Shown here: positions 9,668-27,079 of the stretch, in pieces
Layout of the letters: each line of letters starts with the position of its first letter
Numbering within the stretch: position 1 is the first letter of the stretch
From: a virus
Strand: one strand, 5' to 3'
Virus record (IMG/VR): IMGVR_UViG_3300005918_000105
Coordinates: 1 to 27,079 of that record
DNA length: 27,079 nt
Translations under genes and position numbers: made by a program
Notes under the pieces: generated by a model
Database searches by the model: none
What the model saw: the letters and a program-made list of their open reading frames with translations, nothing else
What the model was told of the DNA's origin: nothing

Positions 9668-10036
9668 TTACTCCTTTATTAAGTCTTTAAGTGTGATTTC
9701 CTGTATCCTCGGAGTCCATTTACGGGCTTTCATGCCACGTTTTACTTTCAAATTTCGCCAACTCCATATTTCTATACGACAACCGGCCTTCAGCCAAGCT
9801 CTTGTATTTTCAACCTCATCAACCGTTATCTTTTTTACGTGAGACTGAAAATCCTGTCCGCATACCTGAATGCCAAGAGCATATTTATCTAAAACTAAAA
9901 TATCAATAATGTTTAGCAAATCATATTTTTTACCGAACGGCATTGGGTATTTTCCAGTAACCTCAACTTTTCGATGGAATACGCCTTTATCTTTAAGGAC
10001 CGCCAATGTTCTCTGCACCGGGGATGTGCTTGCCAT
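9668..10036 (-). CDS. PD-(D/E)XK-like phage nuclease (putative)
   Basis: The 122-residue protein matches the pattern of a small family of phage nuclease-fold proteins. YDLLNIIDILVLDKYALGIQ (38-57) continues to QVCGQDFQSHVKKI and then AWLKAGCRIEIWSWRNLK. D45 and Q57-V-C59 would be the variant (D/E)XK positions, and K68/K69 may replace the missing lysine. The canonical ExK is not present, so activity is uncertain. It lies between the DnaD-like initiator (1-bp overlap) and the ribbon-helix-helix gene. A role in recombination, such as junction or branched-DNA cleavage, would suit the neighbours but is inference. Confidence 0.6.
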   Translation of the reverse strand: MASTSPVQRTLAVLKDKGVFHRKVEVTGKYPMPFGKKYDLLNIIDILVLDKYALGIQVCGQDFQSHVKKITVDEVENTRAWLKAGCRIEIWSWRNLKVKRGMKARKWTPRIQEITLKDLIKE

Positions 10037-10728
10037 TATTTTACCTCATCGGTTATTACTTCAACATCCATACCAAAAGCATCCATCAAAGATTCTTTTC
10101 TTAAATCATCCCTCATTAACCGGCCTCGGACATACTCAGTTGGAGAGTAAAGGGACACAACCTTATCTTTTTCAGAGATAAACCGCAGGGGGTCGATGAG
10201 TAACTTCATGTTTTCTTTTGAGAATTCAGCATTAAGCAGTTCATAAGCCTCGGGATGTGAGTCTTTAATGCCCTTTCCTTTTTTTATTATCTTTTGTTTT
10301 TTTAGTGACTCTTTATCCTCATCTTTTTTGTTAAACAGGCCGACATCAAGCATCTCGTCCTTATGGTATTTGATATACTTGTCCTGAATGTTTTGAGGAA
10401 GGCTTTTTGCAATATTGAGCATCCCAGTCCTGATGTGGGTATTGCTTCTTTTCTGATGTTTATAAAAATTCAGGATTATAATATATCCATCATCAAACGC
10501 CATTTTTTTGTCTTTAATAAAAGCGTTTATTATCTCCCTTATTTTCTTTTCGGGAATGGATGTGTCGTAAGAAATGCGCTCGGCAGTAATCTCAAATATG
10601 CCAAGTATGTTTGACATAGAGCTTGTAAGTAGGTTAATAAACACTAATTTGCCATCAACGTCAAGCTTCTTTATATACCCATCTTCCCAAAAGAAAGTAT
10701 TTACATATCGATTCGTACCCTTCATCAT
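10036..10728 (-). CDS. DnaD-like replication initiator / replisome organiser
   Basis: The protein has 230 residues. The N-terminal 75 residues follow the winged-helix pattern of phage replisome organisers: LDVDGKLVFINLLTSSMSN, GIFEITAERISYDTSIPEKK and DDGYIIILNFYKHQ. A Lys/Asp-rich linker (about 130-155) joins a helical C-terminal part, which in this type of protein contacts the helicase loader or ssDNA. The start overlaps the stop of the DnaC-like gene (ATGA), so the two proteins are made together, as expected for an initiator and loader pair. It probably binds the phage origin; the iteron block at 18411-18476 is a candidate target. Confidence 0.75.
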   Translation of the reverse strand: MMKGTNRYVNTFFWEDGYIKKLDVDGKLVFINLLTSSMSNILGIFEITAERISYDTSIPEKKIREIINAFIKDKKMAFDDGYIIILNFYKHQKRSNTHIRTGMLNIAKSLPQNIQDKYIKYHKDEMLDVGLFNKKDEDKESLKKQKIIKKGKGIKDSHPEAYELLNAEFSKENMKLLIDPLRFISEKDKVVSLYSPTEYVRGRLMRDDLRKESLMDAFGMDVEVITDEVK

Positions 10729-11552
10729 CCCCCCATTTCGATAGTTGCGTATTCTTTTATTTTCTCTCCGAAAACGTCACCGAAGTCATTGTCTATTTTA
10801 TCCTTGGAAAATGGGGTCGTTATAATGGTCTGCCGATGCTCAAAATACCGGGATGAAATAATTTGATAAAGAATATCTCGCCTGTGTTCTGTTAGTTTTA
10901 TTGAGCCAATATCTTCGAGTACAAGTAAATCATAATCGACAATTCTGTTTGTTATGATGGCGTAATCTTCATCGTTTGCAATTTTCTGCTGAATGAGTGA
11001 GTATAATTGAGGCACAGACTGGAACCAACATTTATAAGGCCGGTTCTTACCGTATTTTAAGAGAAGCCCTATTGCTAAATGAGTCCTGTCTTTCCCGTTA
11101 ATTATCAGACATTCGTTGGCTACAACTCTTGTTTTTACTTTTGAGGTATGGTCAAATGTGAGGTTTTCGAGAGTCATTGAATGTAAACCTGACGGGATTC
11201 CCATTTTTTCACAGAGTTCGGGGATACCCGTACTTTCAGTTATTTTCCCTTCGTAATTCTGTTCCTCTAATCGCCATCTCCTAATAACTGCCTGATAGTC
11301 CTGACATTTACTGTTCGCACAGAACCATCTTGGCCACCCTATTTTACTGTCAGGGTCGTTGATTGTATCTTCATACATCTCTTGTCCACATACGGTGCAT
11401 TTAGGCTTTTCACCCCACGCAAGAGACGCAACCAACTCTGCCCTACCCTCACATATTACCCCGATGTTCTTTTTCACATCGTCAGGGTGTTTTTTTATAA
11501 AATTATTTATAAGTTTTATGTATTTCCGTGAGAAATACTCATGCTTTTTCAT
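10725..11552 (-). CDS. DnaC-like AAA+ helicase loader with degenerate Walker A
   Basis: I start the gene at ATG 11552 (AGGAAG six bases upstream) rather than ATG 11573. The 275-residue protein has a four-Cys zinc site (CTVC, then CANSKC), then an AAA+ domain of DnaC/IstB type. The expected P-loop GTGKTHLA reads GKDRTHLA, so the invariant lysine is Arg and the second Gly is Asp. The Walker B region reads YDLLVLEDIGS, with Glu for the first Asp. The segment that usually holds the arginine finger reads FGEKIKEYA without the usual Arg. It would load the replicative helicase, but ATP hydrolysis is doubtful. It sits between a small gene and the DnaD-like initiator, overlapping both. Confidence 0.8.
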   Translation of the reverse strand: MKKHEYFSRKYIKLINNFIKKHPDDVKKNIGVICEGRAELVASLAWGEKPKCTVCGQEMYEDTINDPDSKIGWPRWFCANSKCQDYQAVIRRWRLEEQNYEGKITESTGIPELCEKMGIPSGLHSMTLENLTFDHTSKVKTRVVANECLIINGKDRTHLAIGLLLKYGKNRPYKCWFQSVPQLYSLIQQKIANDEDYAIITNRIVDYDLLVLEDIGSIKLTEHRRDILYQIISSRYFEHRQTIITTPFSKDKIDNDFGDVFGEKIKEYATIEMGG

Positions 11553-11697
11553 TATCTTCCTTCCTACATTCAACCATTATCTGAAATTGAGTGAGCTTAT
11601 TAATAACATAATCTATTTCATAAAGTTCTATTATAACCACACTTGAATTATGGGTTATAAAAACATGCTTGTCATTAAATGACTCGACTTTAATCAT
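11539..11697 (-). CDS. Small protein of unknown function between nuclease and loader genes
   Basis: A 52-residue frame (MIKVESFNDKHVFITHNSSV at the start, ending EDNEKA). Its ATG overlaps the stop of the Cas4-like nuclease gene as ATGA, and its 3' end overlaps the loader start by 14 bp, so it fills the otherwise empty gap and is coupled on both sides. The sequence predicts two short strands and one helix; I recognise no domain. Confidence 0.6.
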   Translation of the reverse strand: MIKVESFNDKHVFITHNSSVVIIELYEIDYVINKLTQFQIMVECRKEDNEKA

Positions 11698-12695
11698 TCT
11701 ATAGGGTCGATGTTGACTGTTATTTTTTTGCCTCGCTTAACTTTAACCTCATAGTTTCCGCATACAAAATAATCCAAGTTTGCGGCTTTAATAATGTCCT
11801 TCGCTTGCTTATCGACAGTATCAAACTCTTTTTTTACTATCTTTAATGGATGGCGCTTATCAAGGATAGCTTCAAGCTTTGTGTCAATAAGAACTCGGGC
11901 GTGGGCCTCACGGTATTCATCAGGAAGGCAAATTGTTCTGTAAGGACAATACTGGCATATCTCGTCCTTATTGAGACGTTCCGGTAGCTTGTCCTCTATA
12001 ACTTGAGCAATTTCATTTTTAATTGCAAGGTAATCAGTAAAATCATCTTCCTGTTTAAAGTCAGCGATGTCATGTATTTGATATTGTTCGAGAAGCATTG
12101 CTTTGATTTCGTCAACAATGACGTTAATATAATCACACTTTTTGAAGCAGTCCTTAACTATTTTCATGTCAAGCTCTACATCGAATTGCTTTAGCTCCCC
12201 GGTGTTTTTGTTTTTACAAAGGAAAAAGCCTCTTTTGACTCCCTTACCGTATATGTAAAGATTCATCTGACCGATGTATGCGAGATGCCAGTAATGTTTA
12301 TTGAAATCACTAAGCTCTTGTACTCCTTGGAACGAATACTGGCTCATGGTTTTGAAGTCAACTACTCTCCGAACTCTGCTCTGTACCCACATACCATCTA
12401 TATGACCAAATAGTCGGTGCTGAGGGAAAGATACCTCAGACTGTTGTTCAATAATCTCGACACCCATATCGAGTAAATCTCTTTGGATAATAAGCTCCTG
12501 CCGATTCCCTTCATTGAATATTACCTGAAGTCCCGGGTCTATGTCAGGTAGAGCGTCCCTGCGAACGAGGTCATATACAAGCTTTCTAACGCACGGAAAC
12601 CCGATTGATGAACAGCGATTTGCGTGTTGCGGCCAAGGCTTTCCTGCTTGTTTTGCTACATGCTTATAGTACTTTTCAACGATTGTATCTGCCAT
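11694..12695 (-). CDS. Cas4/RecB-like PD-(D/E)XK exonuclease with Fe-S cysteines
   Basis: The 333-residue protein has the RecB/Cas4 nuclease motifs. GHID (H98, D100) is followed by VVDFKTM (D113, K115) and the QMNLYIYG helix (Q143). Four cysteines placed as in Cas4/AddB iron-sulfur nucleases are C35 (GFPCVRKLVY) and C247, C250 and C256 (CQYCPYRTIC). Such enzymes resect duplex DNA, here probably to make single strands for the annealing-type protein encoded at 14345-15364. The C-terminal 75 residues (IVKKEFDTVDKQAKDIIKAA onward) form a further helical part. There is no CRISPR array in the window, so the name Cas4 refers only to the fold. A structured leader precedes the gene. Confidence 0.8.
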   Translation of the reverse strand: MADTIVEKYYKHVAKQAGKPWPQHANRCSSIGFPCVRKLVYDLVRRDALPDIDPGLQVIFNEGNRQELIIQRDLLDMGVEIIEQQSEVSFPQHRLFGHIDGMWVQSRVRRVVDFKTMSQYSFQGVQELSDFNKHYWHLAYIGQMNLYIYGKGVKRGFFLCKNKNTGELKQFDVELDMKIVKDCFKKCDYINVIVDEIKAMLLEQYQIHDIADFKQEDDFTDYLAIKNEIAQVIEDKLPERLNKDEICQYCPYRTICLPDEYREAHARVLIDTKLEAILDKRHPLKIVKKEFDTVDKQAKDIIKAANLDYFVCGNYEVKVKRGKKITVNIDPIE

Positions 12696-12889: not shown

Positions 12890-13537
12890 TCATGCTCGGT
12901 AAGGGGGGAGTTTGATTTCTTTTATTTCCTCATCCTTTTTGACGATAACACCCTTTACGAGTTCAAGGTTGCTTTCGGCAGTCTGAATTGTTTTTTTCGC
13001 AACACGCACTTCCTTTTTGGATGCTAAAAGCTTTTTATTCTTCTCATCCAAAGCACGTTTGAGTTGAGCGTTTTCTTTCCGAATCCTCGCTTGCTCTATA
13101 CAGTCCTCATTCACCTTGCGAAGTCGTTCGGTTTCCTGCTCTTTCTCATACTTCTCCCTGCGGACCCGAGCTTCCTCTTTTGCTTTGATTTCGATGTAAT
13201 GTTCCTGCTTGTCAAGATGGTCCTCGATTGGTTCAAGAATAGTTCTGTAAACTTTTGCGATTGCATCGATAGTCTGACCTCTACGGAGAGAATTCTCTTT
13301 CTTGCGCTTGCGCTCTTTTTCGAGGTCAAGCCGAACTCTTTGGATAACCTTACGCCCTACCCCGGCACGTTGCATGTCCACAATCTGAGACTCATGCGTG
13401 ATGTTAATGTCAAATGCTTCCTTCTCCCACTCTCCGACAAGAGCAAAGATATTATTGAATGTTTCGAGGATTTCTTCGGCCTCTGTTTTCTGAAGCCCTG
13501 ATTCTTTAACAATTACCTGAAGTTGTTTATTGTCCAT
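12890..13537 (-). CDS. Coiled-coil early protein (DUF1351-like pattern), possible frameshift at the 3' end
   Basis: The 215-residue protein is helical and strongly charged. The pattern ITHESQIVDMQRAGVGRKVI, then ENSLRRGQTIDAIAKVYRTI and LEPIEDHLDKQEHYIE, resembles phage coiled-coil proteins usually found next to recombination genes. Residues about 100-205 should form a long coiled coil. The frame ends shortly after a run of six C (minus strand, 12908-12903). If one C were absent the frame would continue for about 33 codons to a stop at 12805 with a CPNC motif (LKCPNCSFVFHIDENILG). The downstream reading looks like coding sequence, so this may be an assembly error, an indel or a programmed shift. 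The start overlaps the upstream gene by 11 bp. Confidence 0.7.
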   Translation of the reverse strand: MDNKQLQVIVKESGLQKTEAEEILETFNNIFALVGEWEKEAFDINITHESQIVDMQRAGVGRKVIQRVRLDLEKERKRKKENSLRRGQTIDAIAKVYRTILEPIEDHLDKQEHYIEIKAKEEARVRREKYEKEQETERLRKVNEDCIEQARIRKENAQLKRALDEKNKKLLASKKEVRVAKKTIQTAESNLELVKGVIVKKDEEIKEIKLPPYRA

Positions 13538-13914: not shown

Positions 13915-14190
13915 TCAGTACATTTCTTGGAATGTAACAATATTTTGAATTAGTATTCTCATGCTTTCTACAAGGCTGTAATATACTTCATTTCCTACTC
14001 GTCTTGCTTTAATGATTCCGCTTAATCGTAATATTGTAATCTGTTGTGAATTTAAAGACTGCTTCATACCTACTGCTTTGGCGATAGCACCAGACTTTAC
14101 TTCTGTACGATAGAGAAGAAGTATTACAATTTGGAGTCTTTTTGTATGCCCAATGGTTTTTAGAATTTCTGCTGTTCTTTCAAATTTCAT
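13915..14190 (-). CDS. ArsR-like winged-helix regulator
   Basis: The 91-residue protein follows the ArsR/SmtB pattern closely: LKTIGHTKRLQIVILLL (first helices), VKSGAIAKAVGMKQSLNSQQ (helix-turn-helix), ITILRLSGIIKARRVGNEVY and YSLV (wing). The usual His/Ser-His-L of the recognition helix is Ser-Gln-Gln here, and I see no CxC metal site, so metal sensing is unlikely. It lies in the early minus operon after a 154-bp leader, so it may repress or time the phage's own promoters. The (ACTTA)n motifs are possible operators, but no link is shown by the sequence. Confidence 0.8.
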   Translation of the reverse strand: MKFERTAEILKTIGHTKRLQIVILLLYRTEVKSGAIAKAVGMKQSLNSQQITILRLSGIIKARRVGNEVYYSLVESMRILIQNIVTFQEMY

Positions 14191-14344
14191 ATTATCCTCG
14201 GTTTAATGTTGGGGGCTTTAATAGGGCTTCCACCGCTTCAACCACACGGTAATTTAATCGATATTATCCTAACCGCTACAAACCCGGACATCGTATAAGG
14301 AATTACGTCCTGACCCTCACCGGAGTCTCGCCCCCTCAAATTAT
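14191..14344 (-). ncRNA. Structured 154-bp leader before the ArsR-like gene
   Basis: No gene is seen here. GGGGGC and GCCCCC at the two ends can pair, and inside lie GGAC/GTCC, CCGG and ACCG/CGGT pairs, so on the minus strand the whole stretch can fold into a multi-branched RNA. It is transcribed between the annealing-protein gene and the ArsR-like gene. Its length and number of GC helices in AT-rich surroundings suggest a selected RNA structure, but I do not recognise a known riboswitch. Confidence 0.4.
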
Positions 14345-15364
14345 TTAAAATGGTAAATCAGGCTGATAATCATCATCATCTCCATCGACCGGGGGAGAAG
14401 GTGGCACATCAGGTTTGTCAGGTGCAACAAGTTCCGGGGGAACCTCAACAGGAGCTTCCTCTGCCGGTTGATTCTTCTGAGCCTTGAGATGTTCGTGATA
14501 ATCGTCTCTAATTTTATCGATGTTGTATTTGACTTGATTCTCAGTGAGAAGTTTAACAGACCGCTTACCCTTCATTTTCTTTTTGTCCTTCGTTTCCCAT
14601 TGAGTATATCTCTCAAGCATGTCTGCGGCAATTTCTTTATCATCGTTTGACATGGACATGAGCATCATGGCAATCTCATGCTTTGATTCTACTGTCTCAG
14701 GGTCAGAAGCACCCTTATTACCGCCCTGAGAGCCGCCCTTAAACTCAACCTTACCAATCTTACTCGTATCGAATCCAAGGTCTTTCAACTGTTCCAAAGT
14801 GATACCTGAGAGGCCAAGAAGCCGGGAGATACCGTCACGATACATCTTTGTCCGGGCAACACCTTCCATGTGAGTGATTTCAATATTATCAACTTCTTTA
14901 TATCCTTCACTCGTTTTGCCTAAAAGCTTAAAATGAGTATCGCATTCTCCAAAACCAACATCGAGCATTTGCCCCATTTTAAATGTTGCACGATACGTTA
15001 CTCTCTGGCGCTTTGCAGTATCGCTTTCGAGTATTTCTAGGCCTCGGAGAGGAATGCGCTCCATATCCATTACAGAGATACCAAAATATTTCTTCAGTTT
15101 AACGCATCCATGTCCTTCGAGATAAAGCGTTTTTCCGAACATTGTGAAATCGCTTGGATAAAGCTGTTGGATTGCAAGCTCGGTTATTTTGGTAATTGCC
15201 TCGTTCTTACGCCTTACTTGGTCTACATACCGGTTCACTTCTGCATCTGAATTAAAAGTTGGCATATCGCTCGACTCACCGGGAGTAACTACCATCCGGC
15301 CTTCACGCACAGGAACTATCTGAGCATCTTCAATTCCCATCTCTTTGTCTAAATCATCAACCAT
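14345..15364 (-). CDS. Single-strand annealing / ssDNA-binding-like protein with SSB-type tail
   Basis: The protein has 339 residues. The core (about 60-200) follows a phage protein family in which a lone sheet strand DFTMFGKTLYLEGHGCVKLK is followed by an FGI segment and, after a beta region, a helix MEGVARTKMYRDGISRLLGL ending with an ITLEQLKDLG. Related proteins are proposed Rad52/RecT-like annealing proteins. A charged linker leads to a Pro-rich stretch and a C-terminus DDDDYQPDLPF (329-339). This matches the acidic SSB tail that ends in Pro-Phe and recruits DNA-repair enzymes. It is the first gene of the minus early operon, read from the promoter at 15537-15509, and is followed by nuclease and loader genes, which supports a role in recombination. 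Confidence 0.65.
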   Translation of the reverse strand: MVDDLDKEMGIEDAQIVPVREGRMVVTPGESSDMPTFNSDAEVNRYVDQVRRKNEAITKITELAIQQLYPSDFTMFGKTLYLEGHGCVKLKKYFGISVMDMERIPLRGLEILESDTAKRQRVTYRATFKMGQMLDVGFGECDTHFKLLGKTSEGYKEVDNIEITHMEGVARTKMYRDGISRLLGLSGITLEQLKDLGFDTSKIGKVEFKGGSQGGNKGASDPETVESKHEIAMMLMSMSNDDKEIAADMLERYTQWETKDKKKMKGKRSVKLLTENQVKYNIDKIRDDYHEHLKAQKNQPAEEAPVEVPPELVAPDKPDVPPSPPVDGDDDDYQPDLPF

Positions 15365-15468
15365 TTGAAACCTACCTTTCTCTCCCGGGGGAGTTTGGTT
15401 TGAAATCTATACAAGGCTCCCGGGAAGACCTTATTTGAAATCTGTCAGTACGTACCGGGAGACATCCC
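15364..15468. repeat. Three 35-bp tandem repeats with TTTGAAA and CCGGG boxes
   Basis: Units start at 15364, 15399 and 15434, each exactly 35 bp. All begin TTTGAAA and have CCGGG at the same internal offset (20-25); positions 9-10 (CT) are also identical. A further CCCGGG at 15524 is in phase (two periods on), inside the promoter spacer. The array forms the 5' leader of the minus early mRNA, and the first unit reaches the start codon of the annealing-like gene. Confidence 0.85.
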
Positions 15469-15508
15469 CGGGGCATCCGTAAAATTGTTTGCGCAATGGC
15501 ATAGGTTT

Positions 15509-15537
15509 ATTCTACGGAATCTTCCCGGGAATGTCAA
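15509..15537 (-). promoter_or_regulatory. Early minus-strand promoter
   Basis: On the minus strand TTGACA (15537-15532) is followed after 17 bases by TAGAAT (15514-15509). The spacer contains the perfect palindrome TTCCCGGGAA (15522-15531), a possible operator. It would start the leftward transcript that covers the annealing-like gene and the replication operon. An ACTTA-type repeat (15563-15576) lies upstream of the -35 box. Confidence 0.7.
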
Positions 15538-15656
15538 GTTTATAGCGTTATAACTATATTAGACTTTACTTAACTTCTTCTCCCTTTTCACATATTAAAC
15601 ACGTAAGACTTAAAAGGGTTCCAATTTATTTTATTTAGCATTTCAAAAGATTTTTC

Positions 15657-15702
15657 TTGACAGAATGAAATAAAGGAGTATATTGTTACTTAACTTAACT
15701 TA
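15657..15702 (+). promoter_or_regulatory. Early plus-strand promoter with ACTTA-repeat operator
   Basis: TTGACA (15657-15662), a 16-base spacer and TATATT (15679-15684) form a strong sigma70-type promoter. Directly after the -10 box lie three tandem ACTTA units (15688-15702), placed where a bound protein would block transcription start. The same arrangement recurs at 16842-16885. Confidence 0.8.
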
Positions 15703-15726
15703 CTAACCAAATAAAGGAGACGGAAA

Positions 15727-15888
15727 ATGAGTAACATGAGTTATTGTAGGTTTCAAAACACAGCGCAAGACCTTGAGGACTGCCAAGACCATTTTGGCGA
15801 TAATGATTTAAGTGAAGATGAAAAAGAAGCACGGGGATTTATATTACAAATGAGTATTGACATTGTTCACGATTATGGAGATGAATAA
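15727..15888 (+). CDS. Small conserved phage protein (MSYCRFQNT family)
   Basis: A 53-residue frame that starts MSNMSYCRFQNTAQDLEDCQ and ends HDYGDE. The MSYCRFQNT start followed by an acidic helix (DLSEDEKEARGFILQMSIDI) is a pattern I know from many small phage proteins of unknown function. AAAGGAG lies seven to eight bases before the ATG. It is the first gene after the early plus promoter, so it is probably made very early. The leader in front of it is repeated almost exactly in front of the next gene. Confidence 0.75.
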   Translation: MSNMSYCRFQNTAQDLEDCQDHFGDNDLSEDEKEARGFILQMSIDIVHDYGDE

Positions 15889-15925
15889 TATAACCTATTT
15901 ACTAACCAAACAAAGGAGACGGAAA

Positions 15926-16234
15926 ATGGCTGAGAGGAAAATTAAATTTATTTCCAAAACTGTTAAATGGTTTGATAAAGTAAATGGTAATACATACCAT
16001 AGCAATCGAATCATAAGAGTAAAAGACAGTAAAACGATTGTAACACCTTTTACTTATGGATACGGGGAGCAGTATAAAACTACGGCATTAGAAACTATGC
16101 AAGAAAACAAATGGATTCCCCGGAAGTATTGGAATGAAAATAAATGGTGGTATTGCCGTGAAAACAATTATCCGATTCATTGGGAAGTTTCTCATGGATT
16201 AAAACGTGATTGTATTGCAAACGGGAGTATATAA
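15926..16234 (+). CDS. Conserved phage protein of unknown function
   Basis: I start at ATG 15926 (102 residues), because AAAGGAGACGGAAA lies just before it; the longer frame from 15857 would begin inside the previous gene. The protein has KIKFISKTVKWFDKVNGNTY, then YGYGEQYKTTALETM and a closing GLKRDCIANG. This combination of a basic strand region, a YGYG turn and a C-terminal LKRDC is a recurrent pattern in small phage proteins with no known function. It is cotranscribed with the neighbours on both sides. Confidence 0.75.
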   Translation: MAERKIKFISKTVKWFDKVNGNTYHSNRIIRVKDSKTIVTPFTYGYGEQYKTTALETMQENKWIPRKYWNENKWWYCRENNYPIHWEVSHGLKRDCIANGSI

Positions 16235-16238
16235 CACT

Positions 16239-16406
16239 ATGACCTATTTACTATTGTTTCTTGTCTCATATACTGCAATCGTTATAACGGTCGGAACAGT
16301 ATTGCATTTTAAGACAATCCGGTTTATAAAGAATGACACACAACAAAGATGCTTAGATTTAGAGTCTGAAATACAAAACTTTTTATGTGATATGGAAAGG
16401 GAATAG
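16239..16406 (+). CDS. Single-pass membrane protein, short
   Basis: From ATG 16239 (GGGAG upstream) a 55-residue protein runs: TYLLLFLVSYTAIVITVGTV (about 2-21) is one transmembrane segment, followed by a basic then acidic cytoplasmic tail (IRFIKNDTQQRCLDLESEIQ). A longer start at 16206 would overlap the previous gene by 29 bp and lacks a ribosome-binding site. An early membrane protein of this type could change host envelope function, but no family is recognised. Confidence 0.65.
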   Translation: MTYLLLFLVSYTAIVITVGTVLHFKTIRFIKNDTQQRCLDLESEIQNFLCDMERE

Positions 16407-16407
16407 A

Positions 16408-16554
16408 ATGCACTCATATTTTAAAATTGTTATTAAGTATGATGAAGAACATCCCGAAGCAATAAACGAATTTCAAATTCAAGAAGAACTTATAACGGTG
16501 TTTGAGGCAAAGGATATTGATTGTGTAATTGATGTTTATGATTTAAAACAGTAA
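16408..16554 (+). CDS. Small acidic protein of unknown function
   Basis: A 48-residue frame, MHSYFKIVIKYDEEHPEAIN to IDVYDLKQ, starting one base after the previous stop with AGGGAA upstream. The predicted order strand-helix-strand (FKIVIKY, INEFQIQEELITVFEA, CVIDVYD) suggests a compact alpha/beta fold. It is the last gene before the terminator at 16601-16633. I do not recognise it. Confidence 0.6.
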   Translation: MHSYFKIVIKYDEEHPEAINEFQIQEELITVFEAKDIDCVIDVYDLKQ

Positions 16555-16600
16555 CACCGGGAGAAAGAAATTTGAATTCTCACTTGAAAACTATTATTTG

Positions 16601-16633
16601 AAAGGCCTTATTTGAAATATAGGGCCTTTTTTT
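16601..16633 (+). terminator. Rho-independent terminator of the first early plus group
   Basis: AAAGGCC (16601-16607) pairs with GGCCTTT (16623-16629) across a 15-base loop, and a run of T follows. The loop contains TTTGAAAT, which is also present in the 35-bp array; TTTGAAA or CTTGAAA recurs at about 16583, 16597, 16611, 16635 and 16650 around the hairpin. Confidence 0.8.
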
Positions 16634-16841
16634 ATTTGAAAACGTTTGACTTGAAAACTATGTATTCCGAGGCCGAGAATTTTTAACCAAAATAGTAAGA
16701 ATAATAAATAATAATATAGTATTATCACTATTTCTAATTATCTCACTCCCCTATTGCGATATTGTTTTATCGAATAGATAAACGATAATATTTTATCTTT
16801 AAACTATTTTTAATCCCCGGAAAATAAATTGCATTTTTTAC

Positions 16842-16885
16842 TTGACAGAATCAATATTAATGTTATATTAAGTTAAGTTAAGTTA
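16842..16885 (+). promoter_or_regulatory. Second early plus promoter with ACTTA-repeat operator
   Basis: TTGACA (16842-16847), a 16-base spacer starting GAAT, and TATATT (16864-16869) repeat the architecture of the promoter at 15657. Directly after the -10 box lies AAGTTAAGTTAAGTTA (16870-16885), the same repeat read on the other strand. It would drive the genes from 16923 to 18255. The rest of 16634-16841 is AT-rich and without a gene. Confidence 0.8.
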
Positions 16886-16922
16886 TTTTATTAATATTAA
16901 TTTTTATTGAAAGGTGTACGCA

Positions 16923-17690
16923 ATGAAAAAACATTTATCGAATCATTCGGAAGTATTACATTTTTGGGCCAATGAAAAACAAGATACGGGATATTGTGGA
17001 AACATTGAATTTGAGAATAAAACGATTTATTCTTATGGACATCATTTTCCAATGGCCCGGCATATCCCCGGTGATTATGTTTTAATAACAACAAGAAAAG
17101 ACTCAGTAACAACTGCCGGTCATTTGTCGGGATGCTTAAGCGCTATTCCGGCCCATAAAACAGTTATATATTGTGATTATGTTTTCCCGTTGGGATATTA
17201 TAGCAATGATGAGGATTTATTTTTCCCGATGGAATCACATATATCCAATTTACAAATTATGTGTACTGAATTGGAAGAAATAAAATTGCGTTTTAAACAT
17301 GCAAGAATTTACAAAGAACATTATTTAAATGATTATTCCCGAAAACTTGACAATATGATATTATATACAACTGTTTTTAAGATTAAATCCAAAATCCCTT
17401 ATGCAATAAAACAAGTTATTAAGGCCGGGCCAATAGTAAAAGACGAAAAATATTTTAAATGGGAAAAAAGAAAGAAAGAATTAGATATTATTAATCAAAA
17501 AAAAGAAGTAGAAAGACAGCGACAATATGCAATAGACAATAAAGAAAGACTTGAAATGATTATACGAATTTATTCACTCAATAACACATTTATACAAGAA
17601 TTTAGAATAAAAACTCTGAAACGTGCATACAGAATAGCGAAAAAACTTCGTTCAATGGGATTTAACGCCGTTATCATATCTTGTTTGTAG
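16923..17690 (+). CDS. Conserved phage protein with coiled-coil tail, unknown function
   Basis: From ATG 16923 (AAGG nine bases upstream; an earlier GTG at 16914 lies inside the ribosome-binding site) the protein has 255 residues. The N-terminal domain has a recognisable phage pattern: HLSNHSEVLHFWANEKQDTG, then FENKTIYSYGHHFPMARHIP, DYVLITTRKDSVTTAGH. The middle (190-225) is a strongly charged helix likely to be a coiled coil, and the end is basic. The gene follows its own promoter and operator, which suggests independent timing. The function of the family is not known to me. Confidence 0.75.
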   Translation: MKKHLSNHSEVLHFWANEKQDTGYCGNIEFENKTIYSYGHHFPMARHIPGDYVLITTRKDSVTTAGHLSGCLSAIPAHKTVIYCDYVFPLGYYSNDEDLFFPMESHISNLQIMCTELEEIKLRFKHARIYKEHYLNDYSRKLDNMILYTTVFKIKSKIPYAIKQVIKAGPIVKDEKYFKWEKRKKELDIINQKKEVERQRQYAIDNKERLEMIIRIYSLNNTFIQEFRIKTLKRAYRIAKKLRSMGFNAVIISCL

Positions 17691-17736
17691 TATTATATCA
17701 ATTCATAATTTAAACGCTTAAATAGGGGATTGTACA

Positions 17737-18054
17737 ATGATAACCGGGATATATTATTTTTACACAGATAAAATAGAATTTATTAACAATAAAAAGCATT
17801 ATACAGTAATTAAAGTAAATATTTATAATAATAATGTTGATGTGGGAAATAGAAAAGCCAAAACATTAAACGATAAATTAGGTTTTGGTAAAATGCCGGG
17901 GGGATATTTTAACGGGAATTGTAAAACGTGTTGGGATGATTGTACTATTATAGAATGCCGGGATAATACCAAAATACAAGATTATACCGAATATGATAAA
18001 TATATAATTGATTTAATCGAATATGAAAATAATCTTGATTATGTCATTATGTGA
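17737..18054 (+). CDS. Protein of unknown function, AT-rich gene
   Basis: The 105-residue protein has an Asn-, Ile- and Lys-rich composition, as the AT-rich DNA dictates. A glycine-rich middle (GFGKMPGGYFNGNCKTCWDD) with C62, C65 and C69 could bind a metal or be a turn. I recognise no domain. GGGGATTG lies before the ATG, and it is cotranscribed with the genes before and after. Confidence 0.6.
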   Translation: MITGIYYFYTDKIEFINNKKHYTVIKVNIYNNNVDVGNRKAKTLNDKLGFGKMPGGYFNGNCKTCWDDCTIIECRDNTKIQDYTEYDKYIIDLIEYENNLDYVIM

Positions 18055-18090
18055 TTAAATATTAACCGTATCATATACCGGGGAATTAAA

Positions 18091-18255
18091 ATGAATTTAT
18101 TTAGAGAATTAACAAAGGAAGAAGAAAAACCATTCCGTAAATGGGCTAATGATAATTACATCCCATTTGACGATATAAAGGGTATATGGCATCCCATAGT
18201 ACAAGAAGAATGTAAAAACATGAATATTAAGGCCGGGAAAGAATTCATTATTTAA
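18091..18255 (+). CDS. Small conserved-looking phage protein
   Basis: A 54-residue frame, MNLFRELTKEEEKPFRKWAN to AGKEFII. The pattern E-L-T-x-E-E-E-x-x-F-R-x-W-A, followed by IWHPIVQEECKNMN, is one I know from small phage proteins; the function is unknown. A GGGGAA lies upstream of the ATG. It is the last gene before a strong terminator and the long gene-free block. Confidence 0.7.
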   Translation: MNLFRELTKEEEKPFRKWANDNYIPFDDIKGIWHPIVQEECKNMNIKAGKEFII

Positions 18256-18278
18256 ACCGCATTACACCGCCATACACT

Positions 18279-18325
18279 GGGACCGGGAATATAAACGCTT
18301 ATAATATCCCCGGTCCTTTATTTTA
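18279..18325 (+). terminator. Rho-independent terminator of the second early plus group
   Basis: GGACCGGGAATAT (18280-18292) can pair with ATATCCCCGGTCC (18304-18316) with one bulged C, and TTTATTTTAT follows. It lies 24 bp after the last gene of the group and separates it from the origin-like block. Confidence 0.8.
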
Positions 18326-18410
18326 TCCCCTTACAAACAAGAAAAGAAAGAACCAAAGAAAAGAATATATAAAACTACTAAGACAATTAGAATTAGAATG
18401 TTTTATACTA

Positions 18411-18476
18411 TATGTTTCATACATGTTTCATACATGAGACATACATGAGACATACATGAGACATACATGAGACATA
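18411..18476. repeat. Six tandem 11-bp iterons
   Basis: Two TTTCATA-type units (TATGTTTCATA, CATGTTTCATA) are followed by four identical copies of CATGAGACATA, all in perfect 11-bp register. An 11-bp period places each site near the same face of the helix, as in iteron-controlled replication origins. Confidence 0.9.
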
Positions 18477-18631
18477 CTTATCTTTAATAAACGTCACCGT
18501 TTAAAAATATCTATTTTACTACTTATTAAAGAATATTACTAATTATTATGGACTATATTACGTAATCCAAATATTGACTTTTCTTAATGTTTTGTAATGT
18601 TTTCATAAGAATTCATATTACGATTATACAG

Positions 18632-18658
18632 TTATCAACAAGTTGTTAACAAGTTGTC
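18632..18658. repeat. DnaA-box-like sequence and 11-bp direct repeat
   Basis: TTATCAACA (18632-18640) differs at one position from the DnaA-box pattern TTATNCACA. AACAAGTTGTT (18637-18647) and AACAAGTTGTC (18648-18658) are tandem copies, each a near-perfect dyad. Their place 160 bp after the iterons fits an origin. Confidence 0.5.
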
Positions 18659-18914
18659 AACATTACGAGAATAGATTAAATTTACTATTGACGGGGAAAC
18701 CTGTCACTATTAAGGCCTTATTTATCATGTATACACTGGATGAGTATAAATAATGAGGTAAGAGAATAAGGGATTGACAATATTTTGAACGTTGTCTCTG
18801 TCTCCCGGGGAAACTAATTGCATGAGATTTATCCAAGCATTAATTAAATGAATTGAACAGAATGTTTACAAGGTGTTTTTATAGGGTGGGGGATAGAGTC
18901 AATATATTAGGGTA

Positions 18915-18943
18915 TTGATAGAGGATAGTTTACATAATATAGT
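18915..18943 (+). promoter_or_regulatory. Possible promoter for the third plus group
   Basis: TTGATA (18915-18920), a 17-base spacer and TATAGT (18938-18943). It would transcribe the rest of the origin-like block and the genes from 19357. In AT-rich DNA such matches arise easily, so support is moderate. Confidence 0.4.
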
Positions 18944-19356
18944 TTATACGTACCAAGTTTTTATTAAGTTTATTAATAGTTTATTATAGTAATAACACTA
19001 TATAAATTTAATTACTACTATTTAATATCATCACCTATTATTAATTCGTATCATGCTATATAAATAAAGGGCCTATCCCCTGCCGGGAGAGAGGATGCCC
19101 CACATTTTTTCATCTTCACTTTTCTATAATGATGCCAATCATTGGTACTTAGAACCGCTATCAAATTTGTACCTCCAAAAGTTTATCAACTAAAAGCAGT
19201 TAAAAAACAAAGGGTTAATAAAAAAATATCACAAAAAAATTTTTAAAAGATGAATAAAGTTTATAAAATTGGAACTTATTACAAGTTTCCCCGTTTAATA
19301 GTGTATGGAAGAAAATAAAACATAAAGAATTCTTTTAATAAAAAGGAGATACTCTA

Positions 19357-19611
19357 ATGCTTCCACAATCGACACATTTTTTTATCAAAGAGGTTAATGG
19401 TAAGAAAATACTATTCGCTGACACAGATTATATTAATTATTGCGATGATGATTTAAGCGGAACCAAGAAGTATTGTTTTTCATTAAATGTTCCCTTGGGG
19501 GAGATAAGGAGTTGCACAAAGTCAGTGCCAATGAAGTATGTAATAAAGGATGGCAGGATAGACTTTATAAATATTACCTTTAAGGAAAAATATACCGATT
19601 CAATATTATAA
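19357..19611 (+). CDS. Protein of unknown function
   Basis: The 84-residue protein has three cysteines (C29, C40 and C53) and alternating strand-like segments (FFIKEVNGKKILFADT, CFSLNVPLGEI, MKYVIKDGRIDFINITF), suggesting a small beta-rich fold. AAAAGGAGATACTCTA precedes the ATG and is a strong ribosome-binding site. It opens the third plus group, just after the origin-like block. I do not recognise the family. Confidence 0.6.
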   Translation: MLPQSTHFFIKEVNGKKILFADTDYINYCDDDLSGTKKYCFSLNVPLGEIRSCTKSVPMKYVIKDGRIDFINITFKEKYTDSIL

Positions 19612-19696
19612 AAGATACGAAAATAAATTTTTTGGAACTTAATGTTGAGAAAGGGATAGTGTGCGCTTCATTTAATGCAGGATAAGGGGGATTTTG

Positions 19697-19933
19697 ATGC
19701 CTAATAAAGAAGAAAAGAAACAAGATTGGTATTTCACGTTCGGTGTTGGTCACGGGAACAGGATGTTCTATGTGAAGATTAATGGGACTACCGGCTCATC
19801 AAGAGAGCGTATGCACGAACTATTTGGAGCGGTGTGGGCATTTCAGTATTCAGAGAAAGAGTTTGAGGGAACGGCTGAGAGATGGGGATATACCCTACAC
19901 CCAATATCATTAACAAAGGAAGGGCAGGCTTAA
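19697..19933 (+). CDS. Protein of unknown function
   Basis: A 78-residue protein from ATG 19697, with AAGGGGG eight bases upstream. It opens with a charged MPNKEEKKQDW and continues with TFGVGHGNRMFYVKINGTTG, then RERMHELFGAVWAFQYSEKE and a GYTLHPIS end. The order strand-loop-helix-strand resembles small phage proteins of unknown role. Its stop overlaps the next start as TAATG. Confidence 0.6.
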   Translation: MPNKEEKKQDWYFTFGVGHGNRMFYVKINGTTGSSRERMHELFGAVWAFQYSEKEFEGTAERWGYTLHPISLTKEGQA

Positions 19934-20127
19934 TGCTCAAAATAAAACCCAAAAATTATACTTATAAATGTCAGTGTTGTGGAGTTCGTTTCCATATAGG
20001 CACAGACAGTGAAATATGGGATGAGACTGATGTTTTTGCCGTAACAGTTAAGCATACAGTGTATCCTGCCCATTTTTGTGGCAAAGAGAGAATTGGATTA
20101 ATTAAAGTTGTGGGAGTGAATGTCTAA
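19933..20127 (+). CDS. Small Cys-containing protein, possible zinc binder
   Basis: From ATG 19933, which overlaps the previous stop (TAATG), a 64-residue protein runs MLKIKPKNYTYKCQCCGVRF to VVGVNV. CQCC (C13, C15, C16) and a distant HFCGKE could form a zinc site, in the style of a short zinc ribbon. The longer frame from 19882 lies inside the previous gene and is rejected as a start. Confidence 0.6.
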   Translation: MLKIKPKNYTYKCQCCGVRFHIGTDSEIWDETDVFAVTVKHTVYPAHFCGKERIGLIKVVGVNV

Positions 20128-20375
20128 TGCTTGAAATAAAAGCAGATGGCCCGGATTATCAAAAAGCCCGGGAGATGCGTGATAAAAAGATGTTTGATTC
20201 CCGGGACTGCCAGTTCGGTGAATTTGGGACCGATATATGTCGAATGGACTTTATATTTAAAGAGGCAAGAATAACTCAAAAGTGCAGACATCTTTTGTGG
20301 CCGGGGGTATGCCCAGATTATAAGCCGAGCATGACTCTATGGGAGAGATTCAAGGAGTGGATTATAGAGATTTAA
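20127..20375 (+). CDS. Cys-containing protein of unknown function
   Basis: The 82-residue protein starts at ATG 20127, overlapping the previous stop (TAATG). It has four spaced cysteines (C28, C38, C53 and C62) in DCQFGEFGTDICRMDF and KCRHLLWPGVCPDYKP, followed by an amphipathic helix at the end (LWERFKEWIIEI). A metal-binding fold is plausible. The gene is part of the same tight operon as its neighbours. Confidence 0.6.
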   Translation: MLEIKADGPDYQKAREMRDKKMFDSRDCQFGEFGTDICRMDFIFKEARITQKCRHLLWPGVCPDYKPSMTLWERFKEWIIEI

Positions 20376-20392
20376 AAAATTGAAGGATGATA

Positions 20393-20821
20393 ATGAAAGA
20401 ATACACAACAAACGAAGTAATGCAGATAGTCGATATGGAGCGTGAAAGCTTCCGCTCTCTGACTAATTATTACAATCTTCATCCGATATATCAATCTCCG
20501 GGCGGTCACGGACGGCAGAACCTTTATTCCCAATGGGATATTTATGGGATAGCTGTGTTTCAGATATTAAGAAAAACCTTTCACGGCAACTATCTTATGG
20601 GATTTTTTAATAAATGGAGAGATGTTGACCCCGGGGAAGCATATAAAACTATTTATTCAGTTGTTGTCGTGTCCACAATGGAACTTATTATTTTGCGACA
20701 ATTTACGGATGGACCATTCCCTTATTCTGTTATTGAAAATGACCCGTATGTTATTTTAAAGATTTCAGAAATAATACGTTACATCAATAAAAAGGCAGAG
20801 GGCCTTGGGAGAGAAATATAA
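20393..20821 (+). CDS. MerR-like helix-turn-helix regulator
   Basis: I start at ATG 20393, because GAAGG lies six bases before it but touches the alternative ATG at 20387. The 142-residue protein has a MerR-type N-terminus: YTTNEVMQIVDMERESFRSL (helix-turn-helix) followed by NYYNLHPIYQSPGGHGRQNL and YSQWDIYGIAVFQIL. The C-terminal half is hydrophobic and helical and could be a dimer or ligand part. It is the only clear DNA-binding protein of the third plus group and may regulate nearby promoters. The short hinge differs from classic metal-sensing MerR proteins. Confidence 0.65.
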   Translation: MKEYTTNEVMQIVDMERESFRSLTNYYNLHPIYQSPGGHGRQNLYSQWDIYGIAVFQILRKTFHGNYLMGFFNKWRDVDPGEAYKTIYSVVVVSTMELIILRQFTDGPFPYSVIENDPYVILKISEIIRYINKKAEGLGREI

Positions 20822-25594: not shown

Positions 25595-27079
25595 TTACGT
25601 ATATGATTTTATAAGTCCGTCTGTTACGTTCGCAATATCACCACCGCCTGTCATGAAATTAGTATCGGTTCCGCCGTTTGCTACTATCCATGCGGCTATA
25701 ATGGCGTTTACTTTGGTGGTAATGTTTACTTTCGTCCATGCGCCCTCAGAAGCAATCAGAATGTCATCATTTGTAGGGCTTGCCGCTTCGTTATGCACCG
25801 TTATGAGATGATTGCTCGGTGTGAATGTGGCTGGCTGTCCTGTGATGTTTGAGCTCCAAGTTGCGCCGACGGTTGCTCCCGAGGCGATGCCGTTGAGCTT
25901 GCTGCCATCTGAGGCGACGTCCCTGCCGTCAACCGTGCCACCAATTGTAATGTCACCAGCAAAATAACCGTCACCCGCCTCATCAACACTAAATACCAGT
26001 GTGGGATACTCAACCCCAATCAACCCTGTAAATAAATTCCCAGTTTTAGCTGTCTCGATATTTGCGACATATATACCGTTGGTAGTACCCACAAGAGTAT
26101 AGTCTGCCTGACCAAAAAATATCCCCCCCTGTTCTGTATGAGAAACAGCGGTGACCACTCCAGTCCCTACTGTTGTTGTGGAGTTCCCGGCTATGTTAGA
26201 GATGTGAACTCTACCTGAATCGCTTTTAATTTCTAATCCGGGATAAGCACCATGCCATAACGTATCATCGAGCCGTATAATTGCAGTATTACTGTCATCA
26301 TATACTATAATACTATTTGGATATGTACCTTCTGATGCGCCCTTCACTTCTACACGCTTATAGTGGGCGGCCACAGCCGTATCCGTGCGTAGCGTCTGAC
26401 CTGTTAATATCCCAACATTAATCTTATCTGCATCCAAATTAACTATTTTAGCGCTTTGTATGGTGGCGTTGGCTATTTTAGCGTTTGTGACCGCAAGTGC
26501 GGCTATTTTACCCTCTGTCACATTGAGGTTGGCTATTTTAGCGTTTGTGACCTGTAAATCACCAATAAATGCTGTCCCAATCACCATATTAGCGGAATCG
26601 TTCCATACAAGCGTGTGAATTCCGGCTGTGTTGATGGCTATCATAAAGGCTGTAGCGCCTAATGTGGGGTGTGTGGCGCTGTCAGAGTATGTTGCGTCCC
26701 CTATCGTCCAATAAACATACTGAAGGGCTGTATTCCCTGCTGTAATGGGATATGAGTCTCCGTTATACACAATACTATGGGTATTCCATGAAATGTGAGT
26801 ATTAGCTCCGGGATTTGGAGAATCATTTGTCCATACGTCCGCAGTTAAGATGATTGCTTTAGTAAACATTTTTGTGGCCGTAATAGCAAAATCATCAATG
26901 TCTGTTGCTGTGACTCCAAGCGTTGTGGCGGTCAAAGTTACTGCCGGGGGCGTGGGAACAAAACCACTTGGAAGATTTGATGTGTTTCTTGCCCGAACCC
27001 AATAATAATACGTTTTATTTGGCAAACCTACTTCATGAATGAAAAAATTACCGTAAGCAGTCGCAAGTTGAGCCGAGTC
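25595..27079 (-). CDS. Tail fibre / tail tip protein, C-terminal part (cut by window edge)
   Basis: The minus-strand frame is open to the last base of the window, so at least 494 residues of a longer protein are present; the frame's internal TTG at 27025 is not the start. It begins with the end of a fibronectin type III domain (YYYWVRARNTSN), then a DUF1983-like central part. That part has four 10-residue repeats (VTNAKIANLN, VTEGKIAALA, VTNAKIANAT, IQSAKIVNLD), which should form a triple-stranded fibre shaft. A large beta region follows and a collar DGRDVASDGSKLNGIASGAT, typical of tail fibres. The Thr/Gly/Asn-rich C-terminus is probably the receptor-binding end. Confidence 0.8.
   Translation of the reverse strand, partial: DSAQLATAYGNFFIHEVGLPNKTYYYWVRARNTSNLPSGFVPTPPAVTLTATTLGVTATDIDDFAITATKMFTKAIILTADVWTNDSPNPGANTHISWNTHSIVYNGDSYPITAGNTALQYVYWTIGDATYSDSATHPTLGATAFMIAINTAGIHTLVWNDSANMVIGTAFIGDLQVTNAKIANLNVTEGKIAALAVTNAKIANATIQSAKIVNLDADKINVGILTGQTLRTDTAVAAHYKRVEVKGASEGTYPNSIIVYDDSNTAIIRLDDTLWHGAYPGLEIKSDSGRVHISNIAGNSTTTVGTGVVTAVSHTEQGGIFFGQADYTLVGTTNGIYVANIETAKTGNLFTGLIGVEYPTLVFSVDEAGDGYFAGDITIGGTVDGRDVASDGSKLNGIASGATVGATWSSNITGQPATFTPSNHLITVHNEAASPTNDDILIASEGAWTKVNITTKVNAIIAAWIVANGGTDTNFMTGGGDIANVTDGLIKSYT
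26463..26552 (-). repeat. 30-bp coding repeats of the fibre shaft
   Basis: Three consecutive 30-bp units begin with GGCTATTTTA on the plus strand (about 26471, 26501 and 26531). The first and third share 25 identical bases (26468-26492 and 26528-26552). They encode 10-residue units of the tail-fibre shaft, a substrate for length change by recombination. Confidence 0.8.

Follow-up and report, generated by a model that had tools for sequence, protein, structure and literature searches.

The window, i.e., the whole stretch of 27,079 nucleotides that was analysed (IMG/VR record IMGVR_UViG_3300005918_000105), contains on its minus strand a phage gene (10725-11552) for a protein of 275 amino acids that, judged from its sequence and its predicted fold, is a member of the DnaC/DnaI/IstB family by descent and that has lost the ATPase sites of this family. 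Based on these residue losses, the ATPase of the protein is almost certainly dead. The favored reading, to which a probability of about 0.55 is assigned, is that it is a phage helicase loader of DnaC/DnaI descent with an AAA+ domain that functions as a non-catalytic scaffold (a pseudo-ATPase).

Identity and authenticity of the loader gene

The open reading frame starts with an ATG at 11552 downstream of a Shine-Dalgarno-like sequence (AGGAAGGA), and its stop codon TGA overlaps with the ATG of the next gene, which encodes a DnaD-like protein. In a preliminary description the product had been regarded as a DnaC-like helicase loader that had kept the zinc site and the fold of the family, and both family profiles and structure prediction led to the same assignment. 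The protein matched the Pfam family IstB_IS21 with 39.2 bits (cut-off 24.1) and phrog_50, which is labeled as DnaC-like helicase loader in PHROGs, with an E-value of 4e-18, and its top sequence match in the PDB was DnaC. Over most of the AAA+ core, an AlphaFold2 model that was built from 56 relatives reached pLDDT values of 91-96, and its top Foldseek matches were the DnaC structures 3ec2/3ecc (E-value 8e-8 and probability 1.0 for 3ec2) and the E. coli DnaBC complex. The N-terminal zinc-site-like segment (11304-11399, minus strand) contains cysteines at all four family positions (Cys52, Cys55, Cys78, and Cys83), a DnaI-like pattern that marks a putative metal site.

Residues 152-160 of the loader read N-G-K-D-R-T-H-L-A and are encoded by the codons at 11099-11073. 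It was verified that this P-loop sequence, which had been the basis of the preliminary description, is authentic, because the identical stretch is present in three further IMG/VR contigs with the loader gene (3300025736_000078, 3300035698_004679, and 3300023246_000420). In overlaps of 11-17 kb, 1-2 substitutions and a single 10-bp indel separated the window from these contigs; the sole change in the loader among the three other contigs was K27R. The four records are separate assemblies, which may represent one population. As the three other contigs encode the same protein, a sequencing or assembly error was ruled out as the origin of the broken sites. A pair of compensating frameshifts across the P-loop was also ruled out, because both other frames contain stop codons in this stretch, as was found by reading the codons.

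Loss of the nucleotide-binding residues

The residues of the loader were compared in an alignment with 88 non-redundant relatives, most of which had been retrieved with patterns that favor an intact P-loop or Walker B motif, and with an E. coli DnaC sequence that was checked against the residue numbers of a published study (PMC8213410). All of the following motif remnants are encoded on the minus strand. The Walker A remnant (LIINGKDRTHLA, residues 149-160, 11073-11108) does not fit the consensus GxxGxGK[ST], but reads NGKDRT. The lysine, which is present in 87 of the 88 relatives (the remaining one is a fragment that lacks the motif), is replaced by arginine (K156 to R), the third glycine, which is invariant in all 88, is replaced by aspartate (G155 to D), and the P-loop is three residues shorter than that of the relatives. 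The exchange of the lysine had been recognized before, but the lost glycine had been taken for the second one of the motif, while it is the third of GxxGxGK.

The Walker B remnant DLLVLEDIG (residues 208-216, 10905-10931) deviates from the consensus hhhhD[DE], because the first acid of LVLED (E213-D214) is a glutamate, whereas 87 of the relatives have an aspartate and the other one a gap; the second acid, D214, is retained. At the end of the sensor I remnant IITTP (residues 243-247, 10812-10826) the asparagine, again found in 87/88 relatives with a gap in the other, is replaced by Pro247, so that TTN has become TTP. The Arg-coupler/Arg-finger segment GDVFGEKI (residues 258-265, 10758-10781) has lost two arginines: V260 occupies the coupler position and K264 the position of the finger, which is an arginine in 87 of the 88 sequences and a gap in the last one. 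The sensor II arginine, present in 85 of the relatives, is absent because the loader ends at EMGG (10725-10739 including the stop codon), ahead of the respective position. Thus, the glutamate in Walker B and the missing arginine of the finger segment had been described correctly, and all three ATPase positions that had been listed as lost are indeed lost, but this count was too low, because the length of the P-loop, sensor I, the Arg-coupler, and sensor II are also affected.

Further changes were found outside of the catalytic motifs. In the loader, the helix that precedes the first AAA+ strand has about 10 residues fewer. Of the four positions that align with the ssDNA-binding locus of DnaC, three are altered (K143 to Q, F146 to I, and Y179 to H), while the exchange at the fourth position is conservative (S177 to T). 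In the AlphaFold2 model the first strand comprises residues 149-153 and a helix begins at residue 156, so that only about two residues remain at the place of the P-loop and the predicted structure has no phosphate-binding loop. The preliminary description had pointed to an offset P-loop elsewhere in the protein as a possible substitute. None is present in the loader; the other two GK pairs, in EGKIT and YGKNR, do not fit GxxxxGK[ST].

The distribution of the changes was quantified with 23 alignment columns that have a conservation of at least 75% among 84 relatives, i.e., nine nucleotide-site columns and 14 others, including the zinc cysteines and the core. Seven of the nine nucleotide-site columns, but none of the 14 others, deviate from the consensus in the loader (Fisher exact test about 1.5e-4, computed by hand), whereas any single one of the 84 relatives departs at no more than two of the nine. 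The hydrophobic core positions are kept. The losses are selective for nucleotide handling and are not the result of general decay.

Search for other broken loaders

It had been suggested to determine whether the lysine to arginine exchange is conserved among homologues. It is not: the relatives, most of them retrieved with the patterns for intact motifs, keep GK[ST], which indicates that the loss is lineage-specific, and a family-wide exchange was ruled out. Within the limits set by these patterns, IMG/VR, annotated phages, and genome contigs yielded no divergent relative that shares the losses. Less biased searches agreed with this result: neither tblastn against annotated phages (37 records, 11 of them read from the phage and plasmid matches) nor an alignment of the C-terminal half revealed another broken loader, and a scan of genome contigs with the whole loader protein yielded no match. 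Two Acidobacteriota loci, which were retrieved from genome contigs with the C-terminal-half alignment, were set aside, the open reading frames having about 800 codons. In IMG/VR, the Walker B variant DLLVLEDIG was present only in contigs of this phage, and 14 stretches with a simple lysine to arginine exchange in the P-loop (GxxGxGRTHLA) included no loader. A search for sister phages with the terminase and the Cas4-like nuclease retrieved only the same phage from IMG/VR, and the terminase, the Cas4-like nuclease, and the portal protein had remote or no matches in annotated phages. The nearest full-length relative that was found is encoded on the IMG/VR contig 3300033148_006741 (L023), with 25% identity over residues 52-275. 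It resembles the loader in length and in the pattern of the zinc segment, but, unlike the loader, it has canonical motifs (GKNGIGKS, LVLDDLG, TTN, SR, and a C-terminal sensor II arginine). A natural ATPase-dead member of the DnaC/DnaI/IstB family was not found in the open-access literature that was searched.

The replication module and its context

In the order of transcription, the module consists of the genes for a Cas4-like nuclease, the loader, and a DnaD-like initiator, followed by a small open reading frame and the terminase and portal genes. The gene for the Cas4-like PD-(D/E)XK nuclease (11694-12695, minus strand) is located just upstream of the loader gene. The DnaD-like initiator of 230 amino acids (10036-10728, minus strand), the start codon of which overlaps the loader stop codon, matched phrog_1701 with an E-value of 1e-8, and a loader gene next to a DnaD-like gene is also found in the phages phi OH2 and Pavlov. 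The overlap of the two genes suggests that the loader may contact the DnaD-like protein.

The C-terminal half of the DnaD-like protein (10036-10386 of the window) exhibited a weak collinear similarity to DnaA domain I over about 70 residues (hhalign P-value 0.003; similarities as high were observed in 2 of 300 natural and in none of 200 shuffled controls), and the Pfam profile DnaA_N did not detect DnaA domain I in the protein. DnaA domain I is known to bind to the helicase, and the domain-I-like half could provide the initiator with a helicase contact of its own. A single-sequence structure prediction of the DnaD-like protein had a pLDDT of 32 and was unusable. Relatives of its N-terminal part have different C-termini and different partner genes; the partners of DnaD-like relatives include an intact AAA+ protein (L176), a DnaB helicase (L180), and a Toprim-DnaB primase-helicase (Tenacibaculum phage JQ).

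A DnaB_C domain was found neither in the window nor in related records, which reach lengths of up to 37.6 kb; control genomes were positive. Presumably, the helicase of the host is used. The phage genome is incomplete, and thus a helicase or a second loader could be encoded in the missing part.

A candidate replication origin is located at 18417-18662. This region is non-coding and AT-rich and contains about 5.5 copies (four exact ones and further partial ones) of the tandem iteron CATACATGAGA as well as three DnaA-box-like 9-mers with a spacing of 11 bp (TTATCAACA, TTGTTAACA, and TTGTCAACA).

Possible modes of action

Several ATPase-dead variants of E. coli DnaC have been characterized. The exchanges K112R, E170Q, N203A, R220D, and R237D each abolish the ATPase activity; nevertheless, DnaC-K112R and a sensor II mutant load DnaB onto circular ssDNA in vitro about as well as the wild-type, and the bare helicase-binding domain of DnaC still reaches about half of that loading on ssDNA (PMC8213410). 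The view of the preliminary description that a loader with these losses would need a different mode of action was therefore too strong, though DnaC-K112R was reported to be defective both in binding ATP and in loading at oriC (PMC4705694). As loading on ssDNA is possible with a dead ATPase, though K112R fails at oriC, the best reading is that the N-terminal part opens the ring and that the AAA+ part is a scaffold or a contact to the initiator. Most likely, the phage protein would thus be a non-catalytic loader or adaptor that opens host DnaB with its N-terminal zinc/helicase-binding part. The N-terminal part would open the DnaB ring, the AAA+ remnant would hold the subunits together or contact the neighboring initiator, and the initiator would bring the loader complex to the phage origin. 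Release would be left to the ATP cycle of DnaB itself, to the binding of primase, or to a weak affinity, and ATP hydrolysis by the loader would not be the timer. It is tempting to go further and to speculate that the protein is a natural DnaC-family loader without ATP, for which binding energy alone opens and delivers host DnaB while helicase or primase times the release; this extended proposal is slightly less probable than its opposite. The intact open reading frame with its ribosome-binding site and its overlap with a replication gene counts for a working loader. Two observations speak for caution: given the reported failure of K112R at oriC, a loader that does not respond to ATP may be unable to function at a genuine origin, and, with most positions of the ssDNA-binding locus changed, the AAA+ part may no longer bind DNA.

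The overlap of the loader gene with the DnaD-like gene would also fit a protein that does not open the ring, but is only an adaptor between the DnaD-like initiator and host DnaB, with ring opening left to a host loader (DciA or DnaC/I). The preliminary description had named a pure adaptor as an example. However, the weak resemblance of the C-terminal half of the DnaD-like protein to DnaA domain I, which ties this protein to helicase contacts, has two sides, because a bridge is superfluous if that domain itself binds DnaB. In addition, as no helicase is encoded in the phage records, direct binding to the host ring is more economical, and a role as pure adaptor is rather unlikely. Still somewhat less can be said for a decoy that binds host DnaB or the host loader, blocks initiation in the host, and diverts the replisome to the phage. 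In its favor, the half that would bind the helicase looks intact, next to a dead part that would time the release, and some phages are known to encode proteins directed against the helicase loaders of their hosts, e.g., the inhibitor of S. aureus DnaI (PMC4887207). However, the gene resides in a replication module and overlaps with a DnaD-like gene, exactly the place of active loaders in relatives, and the phage records revealed no second loader.

It is very unlikely that the gene is a decaying, functionless relic with an open frame by chance. The searches yielded no relative that shares the losses, hence no deep conservation of the dead state is evident, and the available copies of the loader differ by just one substitution. 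Random decay, however, would also have struck the zinc cysteines and the core, while the losses are confined to the nucleotide sites (seven of nine versus none of 14 columns), and the frame, the ribosome-binding site, and the gene overlap are all intact. Least of all is it to be expected that ATP is still bound or hydrolyzed, either in a rearranged site or by joining an active loader of the host in mixed rings. There are AAA+ proteins that cope with an unusual P-loop, and the second Walker B acid D214 is retained. But both halves of the composite site are lost, Walker A and the sensors on one face and the Arg finger on the other, so that the loader is unable to complete a site together with a neighbor, and the predicted structure lacks the loop that would wrap around the phosphates.

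Comparison with known systems and significance

The DnaC proteins of E. coli (6qel/6qem) and A. aeolicus (3ec2/3ecc) share the fold, the order of motifs, and the N-terminal helicase-binding part ahead of the AAA+ domain with the phage loader, and one loader per phage replication module is a further common feature. In contrast, DnaC keeps K112, D169/E170, N203, R216, R220, and R237, whereas the loader has R, E/D, P, V, and K at these positions, lacks the last one, and has a P-loop that is shorter by three residues. Bacillus DnaI (2w58 and 4m4w) and phage DnaC-like loaders (phrog_50 and phrog_3277) also have a zinc site on the N-terminal side of the AAA+ domain, and the phage loaders likewise adjoin DnaD-like genes, but the aligned relatives of this group keep the P-loop, the Walker B aspartate, the sensor I asparagine, and the Arg finger, all of which the loader has lost. 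IstB, the helper ATPase of IS21, belongs to the same AAA+ family, from which the loader differs by the loss of the ATP sites; no IstA-like transposase gene was seen next to the loader gene, the neighbors of which are replication and packaging genes.

A dead loader of the DnaC family would be surprising, yet it would have precedents in kind in ATP-independent loaders of other folds and in AAA+ subunits that are pseudo-ATPases. Lambda P, DciA, T4 gp59, and SPP1 gp39 are helicase loaders without an ATPase of their own, and they act as is proposed here for the phage protein. Their folds are unrelated to that of DnaC, and none of them is known to be a dead AAA+ protein. The clamp-loader delta subunit and ORC subunits without Walker A have kept the fold and lost catalysis. 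However, these pseudo-ATPases are part of mixed rings with active subunits, whereas no active partner was found in the phage.

The ATP switch is thought to be central to loaders of the DnaC/DnaI type, and the purpose of ATP hydrolysis by the loader is debated, as ATPase-dead DnaC loads on ssDNA and reportedly fails at the origin. A natural loader that has kept the rest of the fold but no ATP sites would uncouple the opening of the ring from a release timed by ATP, and it would be a ready-made test protein; if it still works, the ATP switch must have been dispensed with. If the ATP-free reading is true, the protein is the natural counterpart of the experiments with DnaC-K112R and the helicase-binding domain, and it would suggest that the ATP switch of loaders serves fidelity and that a small replicon can do without it.

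Further features of the window and related contigs

The gene at 12890-13537 contains a 10-bp insertion (AAGGGGGGAG) at position 12901 that is absent from the three other contigs. In these contigs the gene encodes 240 amino acids with a zinc-ribbon-like CPNC tail, in the window 215 amino acids. The insertion is possibly an assembly slip or a real variant. The motifs CCGGG and CCCGGG are over-represented across the AT-rich window, most strongly at 15365-20400 (18 copies of CCGGG versus about two expected). Within that region, at 15690-15930, two consecutive small genes are each preceded by a near-identical leader (ACTAACCAAAYAAAGGAGACGGAAAATG). A long open reading frame, which may be a tail fiber gene, contains 2.7 copies of a 30-bp tandem repeat (26471-26552), which encodes a repeated NAKIANLNV-like motif. 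In the contig 3300025736_000078 two adjacent open reading frames (14157-15892) next to tail genes resemble, by eye, the halves of a transketolase, and they are surrounded by genes that, also by eye, are radical-SAM-like and glycosyltransferase-like.
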